In this document: one piece after another, positions 7,658-58,005 of the stretch
Numbering within the stretch: position 1 is the stretch's first letter
Layout of the letters: every line of letters starts with the position of its first letter
Source: Allobosea sp. Leaf344
GTDB lineage: Bacteria; Pseudomonadota; Alphaproteobacteria; Rhizobiales; Beijerinckiaceae
Length of the DNA: 64,000 bases
Reading direction: 5' to 3'
NCBI RefSeq assembly: GCF_001426225.1
Contig: NZ_LMRT01000009.1
Span: 265 to 64,264, forward strand
Translations under genes and position numbers: made by a program
Notes under the pieces: model-generated
Seen by the model: the letters and a program-made list of their open reading frames with translations, nothing else
What the model was told of the DNA's origin: nothing
Databases searched by the model: none

Positions 7658-7683
7658 GGAACCGCCGGCCCCGAAGCCGCGTT
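7658..7683 (+). promoter_or_regulatory. EcfG-type general-stress promoter (GGAAC-N17-CGTT)
   Basis: GGAAC at 7658-7662 and CGTT at 7680-7683, spaced 17 bases, match the -35 and -10 consensus of alphaproteobacterial EcfG sigma factors exactly. The element begins 13 bases after the ABC operon ends and about 30 bases before the DUF3833 start, so it would give the DUF3833-topoisomerase IB pair its own transcript. Confidence 0.7.
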
Positions 7684-7713
7684 GCCTGAAGCGTCGCGGA
7701 CAGAGGATTTCCC

Positions 7714-8190
7714 TTGAAGATCGAGGACTTTGAAGGCCGCAAGCCGGCCCTGCTGCTGGAGCGCTATTTCAGCGGCACCACGCTGGGCTGGGGCATCATG
7801 CAGAGCCGCTTCGGCGCGCTGCAGCGGCAGTTCCGGATCGAGGCGTCGGGTCGCTGGGACGAGCCCAGCCGCACCCTCAGCCTCACCGAGACCTATCATT
7901 TCGACGATGGCCAGATCGACAGGCTCGACTGGACGATCATGAAGCGCGACGACCATCGCTATGAGGGCCGCGAGACCAGGATCGAGGACGTCGCCCAGGG
8001 CGAGCAGGCCGGCAACGCCTATCATTGGCGCTACAGCCGCAGCGTCCCGGCCAAGGACGGCTCCGAGACGCTGCTCGGCTTCGACGACTGGTTCTGGCTG
8101 CAGGACGAGCGGACGCTGGTCGCCCGCGCTTCGGTGACCAAGCTCGGCATCGAGATCGCCACCCTCTCCGTCTTCTACCGGAAGGATTGA
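7714..8190 (+). CDS. DUF3833-family protein
   Basis: A 158-residue protein with the DUF3833 pattern: an N-terminal F-E-G-R-K-P-A-L-x-LERYFSGTTLGWGIMQSRFG block, then GRWDEPSRTLSLTETYHFDDGQIDRLDWTI, and a C-terminal FDDWFWLQDERTLVARASVTKLGIEIATLSVFYRK. Many family members are lipoproteins, but this one starts directly at the domain with no signal or lipobox and should be cytoplasmic. The function of the family is unknown; a lipid-binding beta-barrel is a guess. The start is TTG at 7714, preceded by AGAGGA. The topoisomerase gene begins three bases after its stop, and an EcfG-type promoter lies upstream. Confidence 0.8.
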   Translation: MKIEDFEGRKPALLLERYFSGTTLGWGIMQSRFGALQRQFRIEASGRWDEPSRTLSLTETYHFDDGQIDRLDWTIMKRDDHRYEGRETRIEDVAQGEQAGNAYHWRYSRSVPAKDGSETLLGFDDWFWLQDERTLVARASVTKLGIEIATLSVFYRKD

Positions 8191-8192
8191 CC

Positions 8193-9248
8193 ATGAGCCT
8201 CCAGGCGATTCTTCCGGCCGCCAAAGCCGCTGCCAAGGCCGCGCTGCCGACCGCGTCGCGCCCGCTGCGGCTGCGCCGCGTGAAATCCGAGGATCTCGGC
8301 ATCCGCCGCCGCAAGGCCGGCAAGGGCTTCACCTATCTCGACGAGAACGGCGCGCGCATCAGCGACGCCGAGACCTTGTCGCGGATCCGCTCGCTGGCGA
8401 TCCCGCCCGCCTATCGCGATGTCCGGATCGCGGCCGATCCGCGGGCCCATCTCCAGGCGGTGGGGCTCGACGAGGCCGGCCGCATCCAGCATCGCTACCA
8501 CCCGGAATGGGAGAAGGTGCGCGAGAAAAAGAAGCTCGCCCGCCTGCAGCGGCTGATCGACGGGCTACCGCGCATGCGCGCTGCGGTGGCGCGCGATCTG
8601 CGCGACCGGCATCTCTCGCGCACGAAAGCCCTCGCCTGTGCGGCGAGCATCATCGACAGCTGTCATATCCGGGTCGGCAACGAGACCTATGCCAAGACCA
8701 ATGGCAGCCACGGCGCCTCGACCCTGCTGAAGCGGCACGTAAAGGTCACCGGCGACCGGATCGAATTGTCGTTCCGCGGCAAGGCGGGCAAGGACATCGC
8801 CTGCGCACATAGCGATCCGAGGCTGGCGCGCGCGCTGACGCGTCTCGCCACTCTGCCCGGTCCTCGCCTGTTCCAGTATCGCCGCGAGGATGGCAGCGTC
8901 GCCGCCATCACCGCCGGCGAGATCAACGCCTATCTCAAGAGCGTTTCCGGCCTGCCGATCAGCAGCAAGGATCTGCGCATGCTGGCCGCCAACGCCGCAG
9001 CGGCGGAGCTCCTGCTGGCCGGCGAGGCCGCGACCACGGAGCCGGGCCGCAAGCGCCAGCTGGCCGAAATCATGCGGGCGATCTCGGAGCGGCTGGTGAA
9101 CACGCCGACCGTGGTGCGCAAGAGCTATGTCCATGCGATCGTCGTGGCCTCCTATGCCAGCGGCAAGCTGCAGCGCTGCTTCCAGAAGGCCCGCGCCCGG
9201 GCCGGCTGCTCGCGCATCGAGCGGGCGCTCGGCCTGCTGGCGCGCTGA
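8193..9248 (+). CDS. DNA topoisomerase IB
   Basis: A 351-residue bacterial type IB topoisomerase of the poxvirus/Deinococcus-like group, which relaxes supercoils of either sign through a 3'-phosphotyrosyl intermediate. The N-terminal domain includes GKGFTYLDENGARISD and RIRSLAIPPAYRDVRI. The catalytic domain carries RVGNETYAKTNGSHG, the KDLR element near 267, and VVRKSYVHAIV with the predicted nucleophile Y312. The start at 8193 is three bases after the DUF3833 stop, so the two are co-transcribed, apparently from the EcfG-type promoter at 7658. That context suggests topology control or DNA protection under stress rather than a housekeeping role. Confidence 0.9.
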   Translation: MSLQAILPAAKAAAKAALPTASRPLRLRRVKSEDLGIRRRKAGKGFTYLDENGARISDAETLSRIRSLAIPPAYRDVRIAADPRAHLQAVGLDEAGRIQHRYHPEWEKVREKKKLARLQRLIDGLPRMRAAVARDLRDRHLSRTKALACAASIIDSCHIRVGNETYAKTNGSHGASTLLKRHVKVTGDRIELSFRGKAGKDIACAHSDPRLARALTRLATLPGPRLFQYRREDGSVAAITAGEINAYLKSVSGLPISSKDLRMLAANAAAAELLLAGEAATTEPGRKRQLAEIMRAISERLVNTPTVVRKSYVHAIVVASYASGKLQRCFQKARARAGCSRIERALGLLAR

Positions 9249-9328
9249 CGCGCCGCGTCGCGGCCCGTGACGGCGGCCAAATCCGCGCCGCCTTTCGTCG
9301 ACGCCTCGATAAAGCTTTACCCCCTTTC

Positions 9329-9353
9329 GGCACAAAGCCGCCGCCGGGACGTT
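9329..9353 (+). promoter_or_regulatory. Weaker EcfG-like promoter (GGCAC-N16-CGTT)
   Basis: GGCAC at 9329-9333 and CGTT at 9350-9353 are 16 bases apart. The -10 element is perfect and the -35 element has one mismatch to GGAAC. The site lies 43 bases before the start of the first small hydrophilic gene. On its own it would be weak evidence, but five better matches surround it. Confidence 0.4.
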
Positions 9354-9395
9354 GCCTCCATTCCAGCCATGCAAGCAGGAACGGAGGAGGTCGCC

Positions 9396-9632
9396 ATGAC
9401 CAGCCGCGATCACGACAACCGGAGCTACAAGCAGAAGGGCCAGGATGACGGTCCTTCACGGGGCACGCAGGGCGAAGGCCACCAGTCGCCCCAGAGCGAA
9501 GAGAGCCGCAATGACGGCACCAGCTCGCAGAATGGCGGCGGCGACGGCGCCGGCGGTGCGCCGCGCCAGCAGGGTCAGGGCCAGGCCAACAAGGACGCCG
9601 GCACCCGCCAACAGAACCGCGGCCACGGATAG
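9396..9632 (+). CDS. Small Gly/Gln-rich hydrophilic protein
   Basis: A 78-residue protein made almost entirely of G, Q, N, S, D and charged residues, with no hydrophobic core and low-complexity stretches such as GGGDGAGG and QQGQGQ. It looks intrinsically disordered, like hydrophilins that accumulate on osmotic or desiccation stress. The ATG at 9396 has a strong ribosome-binding site (GGAGGAGG at 9382-9389); an upstream ATG at 9369 is also in frame. The next small gene starts nine bases after its stop. I do not recognise a named family. Confidence 0.65.
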   Translation: MTSRDHDNRSYKQKGQDDGPSRGTQGEGHQSPQSEESRNDGTSSQNGGGDGAGGAPRQQGQGQANKDAGTRQQNRGHG

Positions 9633-9641
9633 GAGAGCATC

Positions 9642-9911
9642 ATGTCGGATCAGAGCAGACGCGACGAGCAGGACGACAAGACACCCCTGCAGCAATCGAT
9701 GGAGAAGGCCCTGGAATTGAAGCAGGCCGCCCCGCCGGCCGCCAAGATCCCCGAGGATCGGACGGCCCATCAGGGCGGCATCACCAAAGCCCAGGTCGAC
9801 AGCACCGATACTTATCCCGGCCGCGAGGGAACCCATACGGAAAACCTCAGCCGCAGCCATGGCGCCCGCGTCGGCGACACCGGCAAGACGACCGGCCCGG
9901 GCAAATCCTGA
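9642..9911 (+). CDS. Small hydrophilic protein, unknown function
   Basis: An 89-residue, highly polar protein with no membrane segment or recognised domain. It is rich in D, E, K, T, G and P, with DEQDDK near the N-terminus and TENLSRSHGARVGDTGKTTGPGKS at the end. It follows the Gly/Gln-rich gene by nine bases and is probably its co-transcribed partner. Composition suggests a disordered stress protein; this is inference. The stop is 16 bases from the end of treZ on the other strand. Confidence 0.65.
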   Translation: MSDQSRRDEQDDKTPLQQSMEKALELKQAAPPAAKIPEDRTAHQGGITKAQVDSTDTYPGREGTHTENLSRSHGARVGDTGKTTGPGKS

Positions 9912-9927
9912 CCGCCCGGTCCCGGTC

Positions 9928-11691
9928 TCAGGCCTGGCCGCCGAGGATGGCGGCCAGGCTCTCTCCCGCCAGCGCGCCGCCACCGACCTCGCCGCGTGAA
10001 AAGACCGTTCGTCCCTCCGGCATCGAAAGCGGCACCGGCTCCTCTCCGAAATTGACGATCACCGACCAGATCCGGCCGTCGCCGAGCCGCCAGCCGGCGC
10101 GGACCGCCTTGTCGCCCAGCGCCTCGGCGCCGAGGCTGGTGGCACCGGCCAGTCCGGGCACCAGATGCTGTCTGCGCAGCGCCAGCAGCTCGGCATAGAA
10201 ATCCTCCCAGATCGCGGCCCCGTCGCGGCAGGGCTCGGGACGCGATCGCGCGAAGCTCTGCGGATCATTCGGATCGGGAATGCGGTCGCGCACGGCGGGA
10301 TCGCCGAAGGCTGCGAACTCCGCGAACTCGTTGCGCCGCCCTTCGCGCACCGCATCCGCCAGCGCATCGTGATAATCGGTGAAGAACAGGAAGGGCGAGG
10401 CGGAGCCGACCTCCTCCCCCATGAACAGCATCGGGATGGCGGGCGTCAGCAGCAGCAGCGCCGTTGCCAGCTTGACCGGCTCCGGTCGGCACAGAGCCGT
10501 CAGCCGGTCGCCGAAGGCGCGGTTGCCGATCTGGTCGTGGTTCTGCACGAAATTGATGAAGCTCGTGGGCGGCAGATGCCCGCTCGGCTGGCCGCGGGAC
10601 CGGCCGCGATGCCGCGAGAGATCGCCCTGATAGACGAAGCCCTCCGCCAGCGAGCGCGCCAGCTTCTCCGCAGGCCGCTCGGCGAAGCCGGCATAGTAGG
10701 ATTCGCTCTCGCCGGTCAGCAGCACATGCAGGCAATGATGGAAATCATCGTTCCACTGCGCGTCGAAGCCGGATTCCAGCAGGCCGGCATCGTTGTTCTC
10801 GTTTTCCACGACGAGATGGACATGCCGGCCGGGACCCGCCTCCGCCCGGATCTCCCGCGCCAGCTCGAGCAGGAAGTCGCGGCTGCCGATCTCGTGGACC
10901 GCATCGAAGCGCAGCCCGTCGAGACGGTAGTCGCGCACCCACATCAGCGCGTTCTCGATGAAATAATCCCTGACATGGCGGTTCTCGAAATCGATCGCCG
11001 CGCCCCAGGGCGTGTGGATGTCCTCGCGAAAGGCCGCGGGCGCATAGAGATGGAGATAGGCCCCTTCCGGCCCGAAATGATTATAGACCACGTCGAGGAA
11101 GACGCAGATCCCCAGGCTGTGCGCCGCCTCGACCAGACGCTTCAGATCCTCGGGCGTGCCATAGGCCTCGTCCGGCGCGAAGGGCAGGACGCCGTCATAG
11201 CCCCAGTTGCGGCGGCCCGGAAAATCGGCGATCGGCATCAGCTGCACCGCGGTGACGCCGAGCTCGGCCAGGCGCGGCAGCTCGGCCGCGATGCCGGAAA
11301 ATCCGCCCGCCAACCCGGCATGCAGCTCGTAGATCACCATCTCCGGCCATGGCCGGCCGGACCAGCCGCGATCCTGCCAGCGATGCGCGTCATGGTCGAC
11401 GAGCACGCTCCAACCATGCACGTCGCCGCTCTGCGCCCGCGAGGCGGGATCGGGAACGGCCGTGCCGTCGGGCAGCAGGAACCTGTAGCGCCGGCTCTCC
11501 GGCTCGCAGGCGAGGGAAAACCAGCCTTCCGCCATCGGCATCATCGCCCGGGGCGCCGCCCCTTCGATCGCGAGCGAGACCGAACTCAGCCCCGGAGCCC
11601 AGAGACGAAACCTCACCCGGCCATCCGCCAGGAATTCCGGGCCGAAATGCGCAGCGCGCCGGGCCGGCATCGTCTCAACGGGAAGGGACAC
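9928..11691 (-). CDS. treZ: Malto-oligosyltrehalose trehalohydrolase
   Basis: A 587-residue GH13 enzyme that cleaves trehalose from maltooligosyl-trehalose, the second step of the TreY-TreZ route from glycogen or maltodextrin. It has an N-terminal CBM48/E-set domain (RFRLWAPGLSSVSLAIEG, about 26-45), followed by the catalytic barrel. The conserved GH13 regions are DVVYNHFGPEG, GLRFDAVHEI (nucleophile D), VVENENND (acid/base E) and FVQNHDQIGNR. GTG at 11691 is the first start; an ATG at 11670 is an alternative. treY is divergent across a 153-bp gap that carries one EcfG-type promoter for each gene. Trehalose is a stress protectant, so this arrangement fits induction by osmotic, heat or stationary-phase stress. 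Confidence 0.95.
   Translation of the reverse strand: MSLPVETMPARRAAHFGPEFLADGRVRFRLWAPGLSSVSLAIEGAAPRAMMPMAEGWFSLACEPESRRYRFLLPDGTAVPDPASRAQSGDVHGWSVLVDHDAHRWQDRGWSGRPWPEMVIYELHAGLAGGFSGIAAELPRLAELGVTAVQLMPIADFPGRRNWGYDGVLPFAPDEAYGTPEDLKRLVEAAHSLGICVFLDVVYNHFGPEGAYLHLYAPAAFREDIHTPWGAAIDFENRHVRDYFIENALMWVRDYRLDGLRFDAVHEIGSRDFLLELAREIRAEAGPGRHVHLVVENENNDAGLLESGFDAQWNDDFHHCLHVLLTGESESYYAGFAERPAEKLARSLAEGFVYQGDLSRHRGRSRGQPSGHLPPTSFINFVQNHDQIGNRAFGDRLTALCRPEPVKLATALLLLTPAIPMLFMGEEVGSASPFLFFTDYHDALADAVREGRRNEFAEFAAFGDPAVRDRIPDPNDPQSFARSRPEPCRDGAAIWEDFYAELLALRRQHLVPGLAGATSLGAEALGDKAVRAGWRLGDGRIWSVIVNFGEEPVPLSMPEGRTVFSRGEVGGGALAGESLAAILGGQA
9932..9959. terminator. 11-bp GC stem-loop at the convergent gene ends
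   Basis: GCCTGGCCGCC at 9932-9942 and GGCGGCCAGGC at 9949-9959 form a perfect 11-bp stem with a 6-base loop. It starts 20 bases after the stop of the plus-strand hydrophilic gene and lies within the last codons of treZ. No T-run follows on either strand, so it may act as an mRNA end stabiliser or a Rho-assisted terminator. Confidence 0.4.
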
Positions 11692-11726
11692 GTCTCATCT
11701 CCGGGCGGGTCGATCGTCGCCAGCGC

Positions 11727-11752
11727 AACCCGCTCGCGCCGGCCGCTGTTCC
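11727..11752 (-). promoter_or_regulatory. EcfG-type promoter for treZ (GGAAC-N17-GGTT)
   Basis: Read on the minus strand, GGAAC (11752-11748) is followed after 17 bases by GGTT (11730-11727), about 36 bases before the treZ start. The first base of the -10 element differs from the CGTT consensus. Confidence 0.55.
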
Positions 11753-11779
11753 CGCCCTCCTGCGCTGCACAAAGCCGCG

Positions 11780-11804
11780 GGAACAAGAGGCACCGCCTCA
11801 GGTT
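11780..11804 (+). promoter_or_regulatory. EcfG-type promoter for treY (GGAAC-N16-GGTT)
   Basis: GGAAC at 11780-11784 and GGTT at 11801-11804 are spaced 16 bases, ending 40 bases before the treY ATG. It is back to back with the treZ element in the same intergenic region. Confidence 0.55.
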
Positions 11805-11844
11805 CAGCAACCGCCGCGACAGGCGGCGCCAACCGAGCTGAACC

Positions 11845-14454
11845 ATGCCGACATCGCAGCCCCAGCCCAGCGCCCCGGTGGCCCTGCGCGCGAGCTATCG
11901 CCTGCAATTCCACAAGGATTTTCCCTTCGCGGAGGGGGCGGCACTGGCTCCCTATCTGGCGCGGCTCGGGATCAGCCATGTCTATACCTCGCCCATCCTG
12001 ACCGCCCGCCGCGGCTCCCTGCATGGCTACGACGTCATCGCCTATGACGCGGTCAATCCCGAGCTCGGCGGCGAGGAGGCGTTCCGCGCCATGGCCGCGG
12101 CCCTGCGCCGGCACGAGATCGGGATCGTCCTCGACATCGTCCCCAACCATGTCGCGGTCGGCGGCGACGACAATGCGATGTGGCTGGACCTGCTGCGGCT
12201 CGGGCCCGCCAGCCGCTATGCCGGCTGGTTCGACGTGGATTTCGACAGCGCCGACCCCGTGCTGAAGGGCAAGGTCCACGCCCCCTTCCTCGGCGAACCG
12301 CTGCAGGCCGTGCTGGCGCAGGGCGGCCTCGCGCTGGAGAAGGGACAAGGCGAGACGGGTTATGCCCTGCGCTACGGCGACAACCTCTTCCCGATCCGGC
12401 CCGAGGACCAGGCCGGGATCGACGGGCAGGGGCAGGACGCCTTCCGCGATCCGGCCGCGTTGCGGGCGCTGCTCGCACGCCAGAACTTCGTGCTCGACCA
12501 TTGGCGCAATGCCGGCGACCGCATCAATTGGCGGCGCTTCTTCGACGTCACCCAGCTCGGCGCGGTGCGGATGGACGAGCCGGCGGCTTTCGCGGCCGCC
12601 CATGCGATCCCGCTGCGCCTCTATGAGGAGGGGCTGATCGACGGGCTGCGGATCGACCATATCGACGGGCTCGCCGACCCCGCCCGCTATTGCAGGGAGC
12701 TGCGCCTCGAGCTCGATGCGCGCCAGCCCCGCCGCCCCGAGGACGCCGCTCCCGGCCGCGCCTTGCTGCTGGTCGAGAAGATTCTCGCGGCGGGTGAGGA
12801 GCTGCCCGATTGGGACGTCGACGGCACCACCGGCTATGATTTCATGAACGAGGTCTCGGCGCTGCAGCATCTCGAAGCCGCTGCGCAGCCTCTGGCGCGG
12901 AGCTGGGCCGGGATCAGCGGCCGCAGCCCGAGCTTCGCGGATGAGGAGGTCGCGGCCCGCCGCGAGATCCTGGAGCATGGCTTCGACGGCCAGCGGGAAT
13001 GGCTGGTCGCGGCGCTGGCCGAACTGGCCGCGGCGGAGCGGCCGGACGCGACCATCACCCGCGCCGCGCTGAGGCGTGGCCTGACCGATGTGCTGGTGCA
13101 TCTGCGCGTCTATCGCAGCTATGTCACCGGCGAGAAAGACGAGGCGGCGCTGGAGCCGGCGCTGGACAAGGCCCTGGCGGCAGCGCTTGCCCAGCCCTAT
13201 GCCGATCGGCAGGCGCTGACCTTGCTGCGCGAGATGCTGGCCGGGCCGGTCTCCGCCGCCAGCGCGGGGCTGCGAAGCGGGCTGATCCGGCGCTTCCACC
13301 AGCTCAGTGCGCCGCTGGCCGCCAAGGCGGTGGAGGACACGGCCTTCTATCGCTATGGCCGCCTGCTCTCGCGCAACGATGTCGGCTTCGACCCCGCGGA
13401 ATTCGCGATGAGCCCCGGAGAATTCCACGAGAGGATGCGCCGGCGGGCCGCGGATTGGCCGCGCGCGCTGCTGGCGACCGCGACCCATGATCACAAGCGT
13501 GGCGAGGATCTGCGGGCGCGGCTCGCGGTGATCAGCGAGATGCCCCAGGAATGGGACGAGGCCGTGCGCGAATGGCGCGGGCTGAACCAGGCGTTGCGGC
13601 CGCAGGCGCTGGCGGCGGGCGATGAATACATGCTCTACCAGACCCTGCTCGGGGCCTGGCCGCTGGAGCTCGATCCGGGCGATGGCGCCGGCTTGCGGAT
13701 GCTGGCGGAGCGCGTCGGCGGCTGGTGGCGCAAGGCCCTGCGCGAGGCCAAGCTGCACAGCGGCTGGGCGATGCCGGACGAGGATTACGAGGCGCAGGCG
13801 CAGGGCTTCCTGGAGGCGCTGCTCGACCCCGCCCGCTCCGAGGCGTTCCTGGCGTCGCTATACCGGCTGCAGAACCGGATCGCCCCGGCCGGAGCGCTCA
13901 ACGGCATCGTCCAGATGGCGCTGAAATGCACCTTGCCCGGCGCGCCAGACATCTATCAGGGCACGGAATTCTGGGATTTCAGCCTGGTCGACCCGGATAA
14001 CCGGCGCCCGGTGGATTATGCCGCGCGGGAGACCGCTCTGGCGGAGGATGCGCCGCTGGCCGAGCTTTGCCGATCCTGGCGCGACGGCCGGGTCAAGCAA
14101 CGCCTGCTGCGCGATCTGCTGCAATTGCGTAGGCAGGAGCCGGCGCTCTTCGCCGCCGGACGCTACGAGCCCGTCACGGTGACCGGCGAGGGAACGGGCA
14201 ATATCCTGGCCTTCCTGCGACGCCATCAGGGCCGCGCCGTCCTCGTCTGCGCGGTGATCCATGCCGAGACGGGGATGTGCGACGCCGATGCGATCGCGCC
14301 GCAACCGGAATGGTGGGCCGATACGCAACTCGTGCGGCCCGCCGGTCTGCGGGATCTGCAGCCCGTGATCGGCGCCGCCCTGGGCGAGGGCGACATCCTG
14401 GTCGGGACGGCGCTCGGCAGCTGCCCGGTCGGCGTCTGGCGCGGCGCCTGCTGA
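11845..14454 (+). CDS. treY: Malto-oligosyltrehalose synthase
   Basis: An 869-residue GH13 family enzyme that isomerises the reducing-end alpha-1,4 bond of maltodextrin to alpha,alpha-1,1, giving maltooligosyl-trehalose for TreZ. The N-terminal region has the family hallmark ASYRLQFHKDFPF, then GISHVYTSPILTARRGSLHGYDV. Further motifs are DIVPNHVA, GLRIDHIDGLADP (nucleophile D), LLVEKILAAGEELP (acid/base E) and TATHDHKRGEDLRARL. The C-terminal part contains APDIYQGTEFWDFSLVDPDNRRPVD, typical of TreY. Length is within the range of bacterial TreY. It is divergent from treZ and followed, 77 bases later, by the DUF2934 gene and then glgX. No otsAB genes are seen in the window. Confidence 0.95.
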   Translation: MPTSQPQPSAPVALRASYRLQFHKDFPFAEGAALAPYLARLGISHVYTSPILTARRGSLHGYDVIAYDAVNPELGGEEAFRAMAAALRRHEIGIVLDIVPNHVAVGGDDNAMWLDLLRLGPASRYAGWFDVDFDSADPVLKGKVHAPFLGEPLQAVLAQGGLALEKGQGETGYALRYGDNLFPIRPEDQAGIDGQGQDAFRDPAALRALLARQNFVLDHWRNAGDRINWRRFFDVTQLGAVRMDEPAAFAAAHAIPLRLYEEGLIDGLRIDHIDGLADPARYCRELRLELDARQPRRPEDAAPGRALLLVEKILAAGEELPDWDVDGTTGYDFMNEVSALQHLEAAAQPLARSWAGISGRSPSFADEEVAARREILEHGFDGQREWLVAALAELAAAERPDATITRAALRRGLTDVLVHLRVYRSYVTGEKDEAALEPALDKALAAALAQPYADRQALTLLREMLAGPVSAASAGLRSGLIRRFHQLSAPLAAKAVEDTAFYRYGRLLSRNDVGFDPAEFAMSPGEFHERMRRRAADWPRALLATATHDHKRGEDLRARLAVISEMPQEWDEAVREWRGLNQALRPQALAAGDEYMLYQTLLGAWPLELDPGDGAGLRMLAERVGGWWRKALREAKLHSGWAMPDEDYEAQAQGFLEALLDPARSEAFLASLYRLQNRIAPAGALNGIVQMALKCTLPGAPDIYQGTEFWDFSLVDPDNRRPVDYAARETALAEDAPLAELCRSWRDGRVKQRLLRDLLQLRRQEPALFAAGRYEPVTVTGEGTGNILAFLRRHQGRAVLVCAVIHAETGMCDADAIAPQPEWWADTQLVRPAGLRDLQPVIGAALGEGDILVGTALGSCPVGVWRGAC

Positions 14455-14477
14455 GGGAATCGCAGATCGGCGCCATC

Positions 14478-14502
14478 GGAACCGGCTTCGCAGCGTCCGG
14501 TT
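14478..14502 (+). promoter_or_regulatory. EcfG-type promoter for the DUF2934 gene (GGAAC-N16-GGTT)
   Basis: GGAAC at 14478-14482 and GGTT at 14499-14502 with 16-base spacing, 29 bases before the ATG. It uses the same GGTT variant as the two tre promoters. Confidence 0.6.
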
Positions 14503-14531
14503 ATTCGCTGTGTCATGAAAGGAGACCCGTA

Positions 14532-14981
14532 ATGAACCGCGAGAAGATCGTCCGCGACAAGGCCTACGCCATCTGGGAGGCCGAAGGCCGGCCGGAAGGG
14601 CGCGATTCCGACCATTGGCAGCGCGCCGAGCAGCAGCTGGCGGCGGATGAAAAGAAGGCGGGCGCCAAATCCTCTGCCAAGACCTCGGCCAAGACTGCGG
14701 ACAAGAGTTCGGGCAAGAGCGCCGGGAAGGCGTCGGGCAAGGCCTCGGCGAAGGCCTCGGGCAGCTCGGCGGACGCCAAAGCCGGCGCAGGCGAGGCCGC
14801 GGCCGAAAAGCCGCCCGCGAAAGCCGCCGCGACCAAGGTCGGCCCGGGCAAATCCAGCACGAGCAAGTCCGGCGCGAGCAAGGTCAGCGCGAGCAAGTCC
14901 GGTTCGGACAAATCCGGCTCCGGCACGGCCAAATCCGCCGCCGGGACGGCCCGCAGCTCGACTCCGCGCAAGAGCAGCTAG
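14532..14981 (+). CDS. DUF2934 protein with histone-H1-like C-terminal tail
   Basis: A 149-residue protein in two parts. Residues 1-37 carry the DUF2934 pattern (I-V-R-D-K-A-Y-A-I-W-E, then GRPEGRDSDHWQRAEQQL). Residues from about 44 to the end are a low-complexity K/A/S/G-rich tail with many A-K-S, S-G-K and A-S-K repeats and no acidic balance after residue 100, resembling the basic tails of histone H1 and of bacterial H1-like proteins. DNA or polyphosphate binding by the tail is inference. The ATG at 14532 follows GGAGA. The gene stands between treY and glgX with its own EcfG-type promoter, so expression is probably stress-linked. Confidence 0.75.
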   Translation: MNREKIVRDKAYAIWEAEGRPEGRDSDHWQRAEQQLAADEKKAGAKSSAKTSAKTADKSSGKSAGKASGKASAKASGSSADAKAGAGEAAAEKPPAKAAATKVGPGKSSTSKSGASKVSASKSGSDKSGSGTAKSAAGTARSSTPRKSS

Positions 14982-15007
14982 TCCGCGCAAAGCAGCGCCG
15001 CCGGTCA

Positions 15008-15032
15008 GGAACACGCGAGCGCGCGACACGTT
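15008..15032 (+). promoter_or_regulatory. EcfG-type promoter for glgX (GGAAC-N16-CGTT)
   Basis: GGAAC at 15008-15012 and CGTT at 15029-15032 with 16-base spacing is a perfect consensus match. Transcription would begin near 15040, leaving either about 13 bases of leader (ATG at 15053) or about 85 bases (ATG at 15125) before glgX. Confidence 0.7.
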
Positions 15033-15124
15033 GAAGCTCCGCGGCAGGTGATGTGAAGCTTCGGCGGCAGAAGGTGCGGAATGGCCCGCCGCCTCGCCCC
15101 GGCCTGTCCGGGGATGATGCGACG

Positions 15125-17215
15125 ATGCTCGACAGGACGAAGACGGCGACCTACGCGGTGGAGGCTGGCCACCCGCACGATCTCGGTGCGACCTATGATG
15201 GCGAGGGGACCAATTTCGCCCTGTTTTCCGCCTGGGCGGATTCCGTGGATCTCTGCCTGTTCGACGAGAGCGGCACCACCGAAATCGCCCGCATCCCGCT
15301 GCCCGAATACACCAACGAGATCTGGCACGGCTATCTGCCCGGCGTGAAGCCGGGGCAGCTCTATGGCTACCGTGTCCATGGCCGCTTCGCCCCCGAGGAG
15401 GGCCACCGCTTCAACCCCAACAAGCTGCTGCTCGATCCCTATGCCCGCGACTTCGCCGGCGACCTGAGCTGGAACGCGGCGCATTACGGCTATGAGCAGG
15501 ATGCCGAGACCGATCGCGATCTCAGCTTCAACACGCTCGACAGCGCGCCCTTCATGCCGAAATGCGTCGTCACCGACATGGCGTCGGAGCGCGCGCCGCC
15601 GCCCGGTCCCCGCATCCCCTGGGACCGCACCATCTTCTACGAGACCCATGTGCGCGGCTTTACCAAGCTGCACCCCGCGGTGCCCGAGCCGATGCGCGGC
15701 ACCTTCGACGGCCTCGGCGAGCAGGCGATCGTCGATTACATCAAGAGCCTGGGGGTGACCTCGGTCGAGCTTCTCCCGGTCCACGCCTTCTGCGACGATC
15801 ACCACCTGCTCGAGAAGGGCCTCAACAATTACTGGGGCTACAACACCATCGGCTTCTTCGCGCCGAAGACCCGCTACAAGGGTCGCGCCGGCCTGCGCTC
15901 CTTCCGCGACATGGTTCGCCGCTTCCACGATGCCGGGCTCGAGGTGATCCTCGACGTGGTCTACAACCACACCGCCGAAGGCAATGAGCTGGGCCCGACC
16001 CTGTCCTTCAAGGGCATCGACAATTTCTCCTATTACAGGACGATGCCGGACGAGCCGCGCTTCTACATCAACGACACCGGCACCGGGAACACCGTCAACA
16101 CCAGCCATCCGCGGGTCCTGCAGATGATCCTGGATTCGCTGCGCTACTGGGTCGAGGTCATGGAGGTCGACGGGTTCCGCTTCGATCTCGGCACGATTCT
16201 GGGGCGCGAGCCGCATGGGTTCGACCAGCGCGGCGGCTTCTTCGACGCGATCGGCCAGGACCCCGTGCTGCGCCGCGTCAAGCTGATCGGCGAGCCCTGG
16301 GACATCGGCCCCGGCGGCTACCAGGTCGGCGGCTTCCCGCCTGGCTGGGCCGAGTGGAACGACAAGTACCGCGATACGATCCGCGCCTATTGGAAGAGCG
16401 AGGAAGGGGTGGTTCGCGATCTCGCCGCCCGCATCACCGGCTCGGGGGATGTCTATGATCTGCGTGGGCGCCGGCCCTGGGCGACGGTCAACTTCATTAC
16501 CGCCCATGACGGCTTCTGCCTCAACGATCTCGTCTCCTACAACGAGAAGCACAACGATGCGAATGGCGAGGACAACAAGGACGGACACGGCCACAACCTC
16601 TCCTTCAATTTCGGTGTGGAGGGGCCGACCGAGGATGGCGGCATCATCGCCGCCCGCGAGCGCCAGAAGCGCAATCTGCTGGCGACGCTGCTGCTCTCGC
16701 ACGGCACGCCGATGCTGCTCGCCGGCGACGAGCTCGGCCATACCCAGAACGGCAACAACAACGTCTATTGCCAGGATAACGAGCTCTCCTGGATCAATTG
16801 GGACAAGCTGACCGGGCGGGACAAGGCGCTGACCAATTTCGTCAGGCGCGTGGCCAAGCTGCGGGCGGACCATCCGATCTTCCGCCGCGCCAGCTTCCGC
16901 GACGGCTGCCTGCTGCGCTGGGTCAACCCGGCCGGCGGCGAGCAGCAGGAGGAGCATTGGGACGATCCCGGCCTGCGCGCCATCGGCCTGCTGCTGCACA
17001 TGCCCGATGTCGATGTCGGCGGCGACGAGGCGCTGATCCTGTTCAACAGCTTCGACGGCGAGGTGCCGTTCAAGCTGCCGCCCCGGGTCAAGGCCGGCCG
17101 CTGGTCGGTGGTGCTCGATACCGAGACGGGGCCGCAATCGGATGAGGGCCGCAAGGGGCTGGAGGCGGACGATGTCCTGAACCTGGTCCCGCGTTCGCTG
17201 ATCGTCCTGATGTAG
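15125..17215 (+). CDS. glgX: Glycogen debranching enzyme (GlgX/TreX type)
   Basis: A GH13 isoamylase-type debranching enzyme, 696 residues from the ATG at 15125. It hydrolyses alpha-1,6 branches of glycogen to release linear maltodextrin, the substrate of TreY. After an N-terminal CBM48 domain (LGATYDGEGTNFALFSAWA), the catalytic motifs are DVVYNHTAEGNELGPTLSFKG, VDGFRFDLGTILG (nucleophile), LIGEPWDIGPGGYQVGGFP (acid/base) and FITAHDGFCLNDLVSYNEKHN. An in-frame ATG at 15053 would add 24 basic residues with no family similarity that I recognise; its spacing from the promoter makes it possible. Position after treZ/treY suggests it feeds trehalose synthesis from glycogen. No glycogen synthase or branching enzyme is in the window. 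Confidence 0.93.
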   Translation: MLDRTKTATYAVEAGHPHDLGATYDGEGTNFALFSAWADSVDLCLFDESGTTEIARIPLPEYTNEIWHGYLPGVKPGQLYGYRVHGRFAPEEGHRFNPNKLLLDPYARDFAGDLSWNAAHYGYEQDAETDRDLSFNTLDSAPFMPKCVVTDMASERAPPPGPRIPWDRTIFYETHVRGFTKLHPAVPEPMRGTFDGLGEQAIVDYIKSLGVTSVELLPVHAFCDDHHLLEKGLNNYWGYNTIGFFAPKTRYKGRAGLRSFRDMVRRFHDAGLEVILDVVYNHTAEGNELGPTLSFKGIDNFSYYRTMPDEPRFYINDTGTGNTVNTSHPRVLQMILDSLRYWVEVMEVDGFRFDLGTILGREPHGFDQRGGFFDAIGQDPVLRRVKLIGEPWDIGPGGYQVGGFPPGWAEWNDKYRDTIRAYWKSEEGVVRDLAARITGSGDVYDLRGRRPWATVNFITAHDGFCLNDLVSYNEKHNDANGEDNKDGHGHNLSFNFGVEGPTEDGGIIAARERQKRNLLATLLLSHGTPMLLAGDELGHTQNGNNNVYCQDNELSWINWDKLTGRDKALTNFVRRVAKLRADHPIFRRASFRDGCLLRWVNPAGGEQQEEHWDDPGLRAIGLLLHMPDVDVGGDEALILFNSFDGEVPFKLPPRVKAGRWSVVLDTETGPQSDEGRKGLEADDVLNLVPRSLIVLM

Positions 17216-17635: not shown

Positions 17636-19972
17636 TCAGCCGCCGCGCGCCTGGCGGATCGCATGCCAGATCCGCGCGGGCGTCGCCGGCATGTCGAGAT
17701 GGCGCACGCCGAGCGGGCGCAGCGCGTCGAGGATCGCGTGCATCACCGTCTGCGGCGCGCCGATGCAGCCGGCCTGGCCGCTGCCCTTGACGCCGAGCGG
17801 GTTCGACCGCGTCGGGATCTCCACCATGGCGAGCTCGAAATCCGGCAGGTCGGCGGCACGCGGCATCGCGTAATCCATGAAGCTCGCGCTCAGCAGCTGG
17901 CCGGAATCGGCATCATAGGCCGCCTCCTCCATCAGCGCCTGGCCCAGCCCCTGGGCGAGCCCGCCATGCACCTGCGCCTCCGTCAGCAACGGGTTCACCA
18001 GCGTGCCGTAATCATCGACGGCGACATAGCGCAGCACGTTGACCAGCCCGGTCTCGGGATCGACCTCGACCTCCGCCACCTGGGCGCCGTTCGGAAAGGT
18101 CATCAGATCGCAGCGATGATCGCCATGGCTGGACAGGGGCGCGCCGCTGCTCTCCCGCACATGCGCCGCCACGGCCAGGAGCCCGATTTCCCGCAGCGGC
18201 TCCTCCCGAGAGACGAAGCGACCGGCCTCGAAGCGCAGCGCCTCCGGCCTCACCTGCAGCAGCTGCGCCGCGACCGGCAGCGCCTTCGCGAGCAGGTCCT
18301 CCGCGGCCAGCACCAGCGCCCCGCCGCCGAGATGCAGGGAGCGCGCCCCGCCATGCCCGCCGCCGCGCGGCACACGCTGCGTATCGGCCTGCACCAGCCT
18401 GAAGGCGTCGACCGAAAGCCCCAGCCGCGCCGCCAGCACCTGGGCGAAGCTGGTCTCGTGGCCCTGCCCGTTCGACTGGGTGCCGACCGCCATCTCGATC
18501 GTGCCATCGGCCTGCACCGTCAGCCAGGCCTCCTCGTTCGGCGGCCCGCGCGAGGTTTCGAGAAAGCAGCCTATGCCGAAACCGCGCAGCCGCCCGCGCT
18601 TGCGCGCCTGCCGGCGGCGTGCCGGAAAGCCCGCCTGGTCCGCCGCCGCGAGCACCCGGTCGAGATTGCCCGAAAAATCCCCGCAATCGATCGTGATGCC
18701 GAAGGCGCTGCGATACGGAAAACTCGTGATGAAATTCAGCTTGCGCAGCGCCGCCGGGTCGCGCTTCAGCCGGTGCGCGGCCTCGTCGACCAGCCGCTCC
18801 AGCAGATAATTCGCCTCGGGCTTGCCGGCGCCGCGATAGGCGTCGATCGGCGCGGTGTTGGTGAACACGCCGGTGACCTCCATGCGGATCGCCGGAATCG
18901 CATAGAGCCCGCCCATCGCATTGGCGGCGGCGTTGGTGGCGCTGCCCGGCCCGAGCGAGGAGACATAGGCGCCGACATTGCCGAGCGTCTGCATGGACAG
19001 CGCCAGAAAGCGCCCCTTCCGGTCGATAGCCAGGCTGGCGGTGGTGAGATTGTCGCGGGCATGAGCCCCGCCGGTGAACTCCTCGATCCTGTCCGCCACC
19101 CAGCGGACCGGCCGGCCGAGCTGACGGGCCGCCCACAGGACCAGCGCATATTCCGGATAGGTGACGTTCTTCATGCCGAAGCCGCCGCCGACGTCGGGGC
19201 TGGAGACATGCAGGCGGTGGAGCGGCAGGCGGAACACCCCCTGCGCCAGCTCCTGCCGGATCGCATGGACGGAAGCCGCCGAGATCGCGAGATGATAGGT
19301 CGCCGTCGCCGGATCGAAGCGGCCGATCGCGACCCGGGGCTCGAGGGCCGCCGCGACGATCCGGTTGTTGACCAGATCGAGCGTGACGATCTCGTCGGCC
19401 ACGGCGAAAGCATCGGCGACCGCCTGCGCATCGCCGCGCTCGTAGCGATAGGCGATGTTGCCTTGCGCCTGGCTCCAGAGCTGCGGCGCGCCCGGCGCCG
19501 CGGCGGCGGCGAGATCGGTGACCGCGGGCAGGATGTCGTAATCGACGATGATCGCCTCGCAGGCGAGGCGGGCCGCATCGGCGCTCTCCGCCACCACGAA
19601 GGCGACGCCGTCGCCGACATGGCGCACATGCCCGCCGGCCAGCACCGGCCGTTCCGGCACGTGGAGAGGCGCGCCTGTGCTCAGCGCCAGCGATGTCGGC
19701 ATCGGGCCGAGCGCGGCGATATCGGCATGGCTGTAGATCGCGACCACGCCCGGCAGGCCGGCGGCGGCCTCGGAATCGATCGCGACGATCCGGGCATGGG
19801 CATGGGGCGAGCGCAGCACAGCCGCATGCAGCATGCCGTCGGCGGGGCGATCATCGAGATAATCGCCGGCGCCCGTCAGGAAGCGGTGGTCCTCGCGCCG
19901 CCTCAGCGAGCGCGGATCGTCGAAGGGCGCGCCTGGCGGCGCCTGCTGCGGGACCAAATCGCCGTCACTCAT
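17636..19972 (-). CDS. Molybdopterin-binding large subunit of xanthine dehydrogenase/CO dehydrogenase family (CoxL-like)
   Basis: A 778-residue molybdenum hydroxylase large subunit. Landmarks are RREDHRFLTGAGDYLDD at the N-terminus, DVGGGFGMKNVTYPEYALVLWAARQLGRPVRW near 255-285, the active-site loop DAYRGAGKPEANYLLERL, SNGQGHETSFAQVLAARLG near 500, and GVKGSGQAGCIGAPQ near the C-terminus. The loop lacks the cysteine of true aerobic CO dehydrogenase (AYRCSFR), so the substrate is not CO. In the last motif a glutamine (codon CAG) stands where most family members have the catalytic glutamate (G-x-G-E-x-G). The FAD and 2Fe-2S subunits that normally accompany it are absent from the neighbourhood. 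Either partners lie elsewhere or activity is altered. Confidence 0.85.
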   Translation of the reverse strand: MSDGDLVPQQAPPGAPFDDPRSLRRREDHRFLTGAGDYLDDRPADGMLHAAVLRSPHAHARIVAIDSEAAAGLPGVVAIYSHADIAALGPMPTSLALSTGAPLHVPERPVLAGGHVRHVGDGVAFVVAESADAARLACEAIIVDYDILPAVTDLAAAAAPGAPQLWSQAQGNIAYRYERGDAQAVADAFAVADEIVTLDLVNNRIVAAALEPRVAIGRFDPATATYHLAISAASVHAIRQELAQGVFRLPLHRLHVSSPDVGGGFGMKNVTYPEYALVLWAARQLGRPVRWVADRIEEFTGGAHARDNLTTASLAIDRKGRFLALSMQTLGNVGAYVSSLGPGSATNAAANAMGGLYAIPAIRMEVTGVFTNTAPIDAYRGAGKPEANYLLERLVDEAAHRLKRDPAALRKLNFITSFPYRSAFGITIDCGDFSGNLDRVLAAADQAGFPARRRQARKRGRLRGFGIGCFLETSRGPPNEEAWLTVQADGTIEMAVGTQSNGQGHETSFAQVLAARLGLSVDAFRLVQADTQRVPRGGGHGGARSLHLGGGALVLAAEDLLAKALPVAAQLLQVRPEALRFEAGRFVSREEPLREIGLLAVAAHVRESSGAPLSSHGDHRCDLMTFPNGAQVAEVEVDPETGLVNVLRYVAVDDYGTLVNPLLTEAQVHGGLAQGLGQALMEEAAYDADSGQLLSASFMDYAMPRAADLPDFELAMVEIPTRSNPLGVKGSGQAGCIGAPQTVMHAILDALRPLGVRHLDMPATPARIWHAIRQARGG

Positions 19973-57745: not shown

Positions 57746-58005
57746 GGCGGCTCCCGGACTTCGCGGCCGAGCCTGTGGCCGCCGACCGCGCTTGACAAGC
57801 ATCATCTTTAGCGGTGTGCATCGCCGATCCGCCGCAATGGCGCCCGGCCCCTGACGTTCCATGTGCTTTCGCGGACCAGTTCGCTTTCGCTCCAGGCGCC
57901 CCCATCGGCGGGGCCGCCCCGGCCGAGGTTGAGTGCAGCGCGACGCGCGCGTCCCATCCGTCCGCCTCCCAGAACTCAGCCGAGGAGCCGCCCGAGCCGG
58001 CGGCT

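Follow-up and report, generated by a model that had tools for sequence, protein, structure and literature searches.

Within a 64-kb stretch of contig NZ_LMRT01000009.1 from Allobosea sp. Leaf344, counted here among the genomes of Bosea and referred to in its whole length as the window, the region from 7.66 to 15.03 kb is very probably a general-stress-response gene cluster of Bosea that is transcribed from five separate promoters of the sigma factor EcfG. In this system, phosphorylated PhyR binds NepR under stress and EcfG is thereby freed. The evidence comes from the promoter-like sites themselves, their gene-by-gene conservation, the regulator genes found elsewhere in the genome and the enzyme families that the region encodes. 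From these comparisons of sequence, the reading of the sites as EcfG promoters is well supported.

We searched both strands of the window for exact matches to GGAAC-N16/17-(C/G)GTT and found five, as compared to an expected number of 0.54; the largest number seen in shuffled sequence was three, and five was reached in 0/100 shuffles. All five matches are intergenic, according to a purpose-built gene caller based on codon usage, and each is oriented toward a gene. They are the same five sites, with the same spacings, that a sequence-only reading of the window had described, and its division into two CGTT sites (at 7658 and 15008) and three GGTT sites (at 11727, 11780 and 14478) was likewise recovered. 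No exact match lies elsewhere in the window on either strand. When a position matrix was trained on relatives only (75 sites, none of them taken from the window), its five highest scores in the whole window fell on these five sites. The sites are:

7658..7683, plus strand: predicted EcfG-type promoter of DUF3833-topoisomerase IB; GGAAC-N17-CGTT, exact, intergenic, matrix rank 2
11727..11752, minus strand: predicted EcfG-type promoter of treZ; GGAAC-N17-GGTT, exact, matrix rank 5
11780..11804, plus strand: predicted EcfG-type promoter of treY; GGAAC-N16-GGTT, exact, matrix rank 4
14478..14502, plus strand: predicted EcfG-type promoter of the DUF2934 gene; GGAAC-N16-GGTT, exact, matrix rank 1
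15008..15032, plus strand: predicted EcfG-type promoter of glgX; GGAAC-N16-CGTT, exact, matrix rank 3, with an exact site in 26/26 relatives

The genes that these sites face are:

7714..8190, plus strand: gene for a DUF3833 protein, with a TTG start (PF12915, E 9.8e-40, model positions 10-163)
8193..9248, plus strand: gene for a bacterial type IB topoisomerase (PF21338, E 4e-24; PF01028, E 2.9e-22)
9928..11691, minus strand: treZ, malto-oligosyltrehalose trehalohydrolase (NCBIfam TIGR02402, 663.2 bits, cut-off 538.8)
11845..14454, plus strand: treY, malto-oligosyltrehalose synthase (NCBIfam TIGR02401, 887.7 bits, cut-off 498.65)
14532..14981, plus strand: gene for a DUF2934 protein with a Lys/Ala/Ser-rich tail (PF11154, E 1.1e-12)
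15053..17215, plus strand: glgX, glycogen debranching enzyme (NCBIfam TIGR02100, 1012.6 bits, cut-off 640.9)

The -10 element ends 30 bases before the start codon of the DUF3833 gene, 35 before that of treZ, 40 before that of treY and 29 before that of the DUF2934 gene. For glgX the distance is 20 bases to a GTG at 15053 or 92 bases to an ATG at 15125; its start is uncertain, with the gene caller picking the ATG and several relatives having their earliest usable start codons around residues 25-31 in the 720-residue frame. The treZ and treY sites are divergent, with 27 bases between their -35 elements. Only 2 bases separate the DUF3833 stop codon from the ATG of the topoisomerase IB gene, so that one promoter should serve both. 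The topoisomerase carries both the Top1B N-terminal and the catalytic domain, and all three families of the TreY/TreZ/GlgX route are present, each above the cut-off of its NCBIfam equivalog model. TreY turns maltodextrin ends into the trehalosyl form, TreZ releases trehalose, and GlgX debranches glycogen.

To compare the sites with their orthologous positions in Bosea, we used 87 permuted motifs in the same upstream regions as controls, whose means ranged from 0.02 to 0.32. An exact site precedes glgX in all 26 relatives, always as CGTT (permuted mean 0.29, maximum 11); this count covers the 26 best loci and leaves out a locus at a contig edge (L171), second close copies (G012, G084) and fragments (G079 on C364, and G083). 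Ahead of the DUF2934 gene, 20/28 loci have an exact site and 26/28 have one with any NGTT (permuted mean 0.13, maximum 4), and 22 of these 26 NGTT sites end 38 to 40 bases ahead of the gene start; a twenty-ninth locus (L190) gave no alignment. For topoisomerase IB, exact sites were found at 4 of 25 same-genus loci (permuted maximum 1), four loci that belong to different genera of the order (L058-L061) being excluded, and 20/25 had a site of the relaxed form (C/G/T)(A/G)TT, which was chosen after seeing the data (permuted relaxed mean 0.13, maximum 3).

None of ecfG, phyR and nepR lies in the window, as the sequence-only reading had noted; all three sit on another contig, C1. A whole-genome search gave a single match for nepR (C1:1064982, PF18557, E 2.7e-13), with phyR (PF22029 and PF22233) beside it; a neighboring gene encodes HisKA_2/HWE kinase domains. 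The ecfG frame, which was assigned by place and conservation, a reservation for the EcfG interpretation, lies beside nepR and overlaps its end; it is kept at 71% or more in 57/61 Bosea genomes, and no further match in its own genome reaches E<=1e-20. Six exact motif sites fall within 10.6 kb at phyR-nepR-ecfG and the HWE kinase gene (G000:C1:1060071-1070625, L142), which makes this locus a second dense motif cluster of the same genome. The motif was also present ahead of nepR-ecfG in 30/30 Bosea loci, drawn from the 57 genomes whose EcfG reaches at least 71% and including the genome studied here, when any NGTT or (C/G)ATT was accepted and no permuted control was applied. There it takes the form GGAAC-N16, ahead of nepR and roughly 330-400 bases upstream of ecfG, with TGTT in 16 loci, CGTT in 12, AGTT in one and CATT in one, the last being our own genome. 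These 30 sites match the reported nepR-ecfG promoter of Sphingopyxis (PMC7083833) and tie the motif to EcfG in Bosea. We set aside the joint occurrence of DUF2934 and EcfG as a line of evidence, since shared ancestry could explain the pattern: the 7/61 genomes without DUF2934 comprise four without a close EcfG and three with an EcfG of 71-77%.

From this arrangement we infer binding by EcfG, induction under stress and the functions of the products in the cell. Under stress, phosphorylated PhyR would take up NepR and EcfG would be released; RNA polymerase carrying EcfG would then initiate at the GGAAC-N16/17-(C/G)GTT sites and raise expression of DUF3833-topoisomerase IB, treZ, treY, the DUF2934 gene and glgX and, less certainly, of two small hydrophilic genes. 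GlgX would free maltodextrin ends from glycogen, which TreY and then TreZ would convert to trehalose, while topoisomerase IB and the small hydrophilic proteins would serve to protect DNA and the contents of the cell. The sequence-only reading had proposed a stress regulon of eight genes. This holds up for six of them, each with an exact site of its own or placed immediately after a gene that has one, and is weakened for the two small genes, whose site is marginal.

It is very unlikely that the cluster is an accident of composition, in which G+C-rich intergenic DNA merely resembles the motif, and we regard this as the least probable of the alternatives. In its favor, the reversed pattern is as common as the motif or commoner in 23/61 Bosea genomes (for example, 164 motif against 255 reversed matches in G001), such that there is no genus-wide excess of the motif, a point that also weighs on the EcfG interpretation; in the genome studied here, 136 exact matches in 4.35 Mb compare with 71 for the reversed pattern. 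The ratio of the two varies widely across the 61 genomes, and the reversed pattern was dropped as an unreliable genome-wide null. Position relative to genes is the better control. Among the first 30 exact sites on C1, 26 are intergenic, as compared to 16.8% of random nearby positions, and 21 are intergenic with a sense gene start within 250 bases, as compared to 5.9%. At a matrix score of at least 12, the window contains six intergenic hits against a shuffled-intergenic mean of 0.17, and at a score of at least 10 again six, against a mean of 1.03 and a maximum of 5; none of 300 dinucleotide-preserving intergenic shuffles reached six at either threshold. The comparison with shuffled sequence that the sequence-only reading had proposed comes out in favor of the cluster, both for the window (0/100) and for its intergenic DNA (0/300). 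The near-fixed distance before the DUF2934 gene and the 26/26 sites at glgX further argue against a compositional origin of those two sites, as does the negative result for the control gene eutB (0/29 exact and 1/29 relaxed, in 29 of 33 relatives with a match).

A less remote, though still improbable, alternative is that another extracytoplasmic function (ECF) sigma factor with a GGAAC -35 element, similar to RpoE, reads the sites, so that the genes would form a different stimulon. A -35 of the GGAAC type is common to other ECF factors, for example E. coli RpoE (PMC8103513). Against this alternative, a -10 element of the CGTT kind has been published for EcfG, as in the Rhizobium etli promoter GGAAC-N16-CGTT (PMC3892343), and the same motif stands ahead of nepR-ecfG in 30/30 Bosea loci.

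The alternative to which we give the most weight, while still considering it unlikely, is that some sites, chiefly those of treY and treZ and the one at 9329 (a one-mismatch site ahead of the small genes), are chance or weak matches and that the firm targets are only glgX, the DUF2934 gene and topoisomerase IB. The sites of treY, treZ and the DUF3833 gene are not generally conserved across Bosea, and this counts against the full set of five promoters. For treY, an exact sense site was found in 1/7 relatives, and a permuted motif reaches 3/7; for the closer class of treZ, one was found in 3/7, these three being near-identical (spacer identity 0.96); and for the DUF3833 gene in 0/8 (10 loci, of which two gave no alignment and one of those counted is the second copy in our own genome). 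The 9329 site is marginal, as its score of 8.99 was matched in 73/2000 local shuffles. The more distant treZ class has an exact site in 1/9 loci, and the distant treY class in 0/5, which is uninformative because the alignment began only at residue 205. The treY and treZ sites rest on the sequence of their own genome more than on conservation. On the other side, only 0.54 exact sites are expected by chance in the whole window, and both treZ and treY are EcfG-dependent in Sphingomonas melonis Fr1 (PMC6599016). Gene order around treYZ differs in relatives, and the promoters may therefore have been replaced. Accepting this alternative would shrink the EcfG interpretation, with its core remaining compatible. 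Two published observations also temper that interpretation: in S. melonis, the region upstream of glgX was tested as one that EcfG may control only indirectly (PMC6599016), and treZY mutants of Bradyrhizobium diazoefficiens still accumulated trehalose under stress, treZY being dispensable there (PMC8092242), so that the TreYZ route need not be the main source of trehalose.

Whether the region is an island depends on the genome considered. A core of glgX and DUF2934, to which treYZ often lies close, is common to the genus: the DUF2934 gene is found within 8 kb of glgX in 25/26 relatives, and treZ within 20 kb of glgX in 6/7. In contrast, topoisomerase IB was within 20 kb of a close glgX in 0/16 assemblies with both, these being mostly drafts in which contig ends could hide a few cases. 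No DUF3833 gene was found beside topoisomerase IB in the 25 relatives, and a family search located one in only one of those genomes (G004), on another contig. Topoisomerase IB and DUF3833 thus appear to have joined the core in our own genome, and the description of the region as an island in the sequence-only reading fits that genome and not its relatives. Since topoisomerase IB keeps a site of this type in 20/25 relatives and is away from glgX in the 16 with both, EcfG promoters are suggested to travel with single genes instead of in a fixed operon, and each promoter seems to be tied to its gene more than to the cluster.

The form of the -10 element differs from target to target. It is CGTT at all 26 glgX loci despite divergence of their spacers (mean identity 0.41 across the 20 sites where the spacer is 16 bases long), mostly GGTT at DUF2934 (14/26), mostly CATT or GATT at topoisomerase IB (16/20) and most often TGTT at nepR-ecfG (16/30). 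In Sphingopyxis granuli, changing CGTT to CATT or TGTT lowers transcription in vitro, and the same study proposed that non-consensus -10 boxes may be regulatory, with other promoter features contributing (PMC7083833). We tentatively suggest, without leaning toward it, that the -10 element sets the level of EcfG output gene by gene, like a volume control, and is kept by selection separately at each target; the pattern would then be an evolved dose ranking within one regulon. Relatedness of the species could explain part of it. The pattern makes the published in vitro idea of promoter strength testable by comparison across species.

Weaker sites were also considered. When one mismatch in the -35 element was allowed, eight intergenic sites were obtained: the five exact ones, 9329, 7660(-), which overlaps the 7658 site on the opposite strand, and 30819, which falls outside the region. 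The sixth matrix hit, at 57836-57860(-), is a GGAAC-N16-CATT sequence upstream of eutB that was absent from the sequence-only reading, whose by-eye finding of no comparable site in the other intergenic regions holds for exact sites. As an EcfG promoter of eutB it was rejected, given the counts in relatives. The site at 9329, which that reading had listed as a sixth, is present with its single mismatch, 42 bases ahead of the first of the small hydrophilic genes:

9329..9353, plus strand: tentative weak EcfG-type site; GGCAC-N16-CGTT, one mismatch, matrix score 8.99
9396..9632, plus strand: small hydrophilic protein gene 1; 78 residues, 21.8% Gly, grand average of hydropathy (GRAVY) -2.06
9642..9911, plus strand: small hydrophilic protein gene 2; 89 residues, 10.1% Gly, GRAVY -1.32

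Hydrophilins are defined by more than about 6% glycine together with high hydrophilicity, and on composition both proteins qualify. Neither has a family match in Pfam or NCBIfam. Gene 1 occurs in 1/61 Bosea genomes, its own, and gene 2 in 2/61, its own included; a plasmid home for gene 2 was rejected after a plasmid collection gave no match. No intrinsic terminator was found between topoisomerase IB and the small genes (the whole stretch has 2 terminator-like sequences against 4.5 expected), and the fold of 9249-9330 was no better than that of shuffles. A strong hairpin is present at 9931-9960, where the ends of small gene 2 and treZ converge (z -3.18 for 9905-9960).

Several other features of these genes and sites were observed. 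The DUF3833 protein of the window has 158 residues from its TTG start, and its match begins at model position 10, whereas 9/10 other DUF3833 matches lie in longer open frames (197-369 residues); the second copy in the same genome is at C8:373159. The distant treZ class in other Bosea genomes (L133-L141) has 49-52% identity. All seven treY loci (L126-L132) have an exact site that points away from treY, located 119 to 213 bases upstream of the aligned start, and L126 holds both sense and away-pointing sites. Several EcfG-type sites in these trehalose regions form divergent pairs; constant geometry of the pairs was rejected as a rule, since the mapped distances vary. Overlapping plus- and minus-strand motif matches two bases apart occur, for example, at C1:138997/138999. 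Behind the first 30 exact sites on C1 lie 24 genes; a Pfam scan covered 17 of these and assigned a family to 12, including CsbD, PRC-barrel, DUF883, uracil-DNA glycosylase, L,D-transpeptidase and PAS-HWE kinase. Near the island, a molybdopterin-binding large-subunit gene on the minus strand (17636-19972) is without an exact motif upstream; CoxL-like genes are EcfG-dependent in S. melonis (PMC6599016).

Literature searches joining EcfG with DUF2934 found nothing, DUF2934 paired with stress brought up two papers, and the three papers returned for DUF3833 are unrelated by title and the start of the abstract. A search combining topoisomerase IB, general stress response and sigma factor gave only PMC6599016, and among the matches listed for Bosea, general stress response and EcfG, only a duckweed microbiome study names Bosea. 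The present analysis provides a predicted EcfG target set for this genus.

Three known systems can be compared with the region. In S. melonis Fr1, treY, treZ, glgX and topoisomerase IB are all EcfG-dependent, and GGAAC...GTT promoters are enriched there within 100 bases of the start (PMC6599016). Similar to the region described here, that strain has an EcfG-dependent cluster with malto-oligosyltrehalose synthase, the trehalohydrolase and glgX, and an EcfG-dependent topoisomerase IB with GGAAC...CATT 24 bases before its start. Its cluster differs in adding a 4-alpha-glucanotransferase and in having low motif scores before treZ (2.97) and glgX (5.11) (PMC6599016), whereas in the region described here treZ, treY and glgX each have an exact site and the 7 kb also include topoisomerase IB, preceded by a DUF3833 gene. 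In B. diazoefficiens, trehalose genes are likewise part of the SigmaEcfG regulon, but those named are a locus of the trehalose-6-phosphate pathway (otsA/otsB) and treS, in contrast to the sites at treY, treZ and glgX here (PMC8092242). Sphingopyxis granuli TFA has two EcfG paralogues, as compared to one match at E<=1e-20 here; it shares the -10 variants CGTT, CATT and TGTT and has GGAAC-N16-CGTT ahead of nepR-ecfG (PMC7083833). The promoter set in Bosea is thus an ordinary case of the well-known EcfG system.

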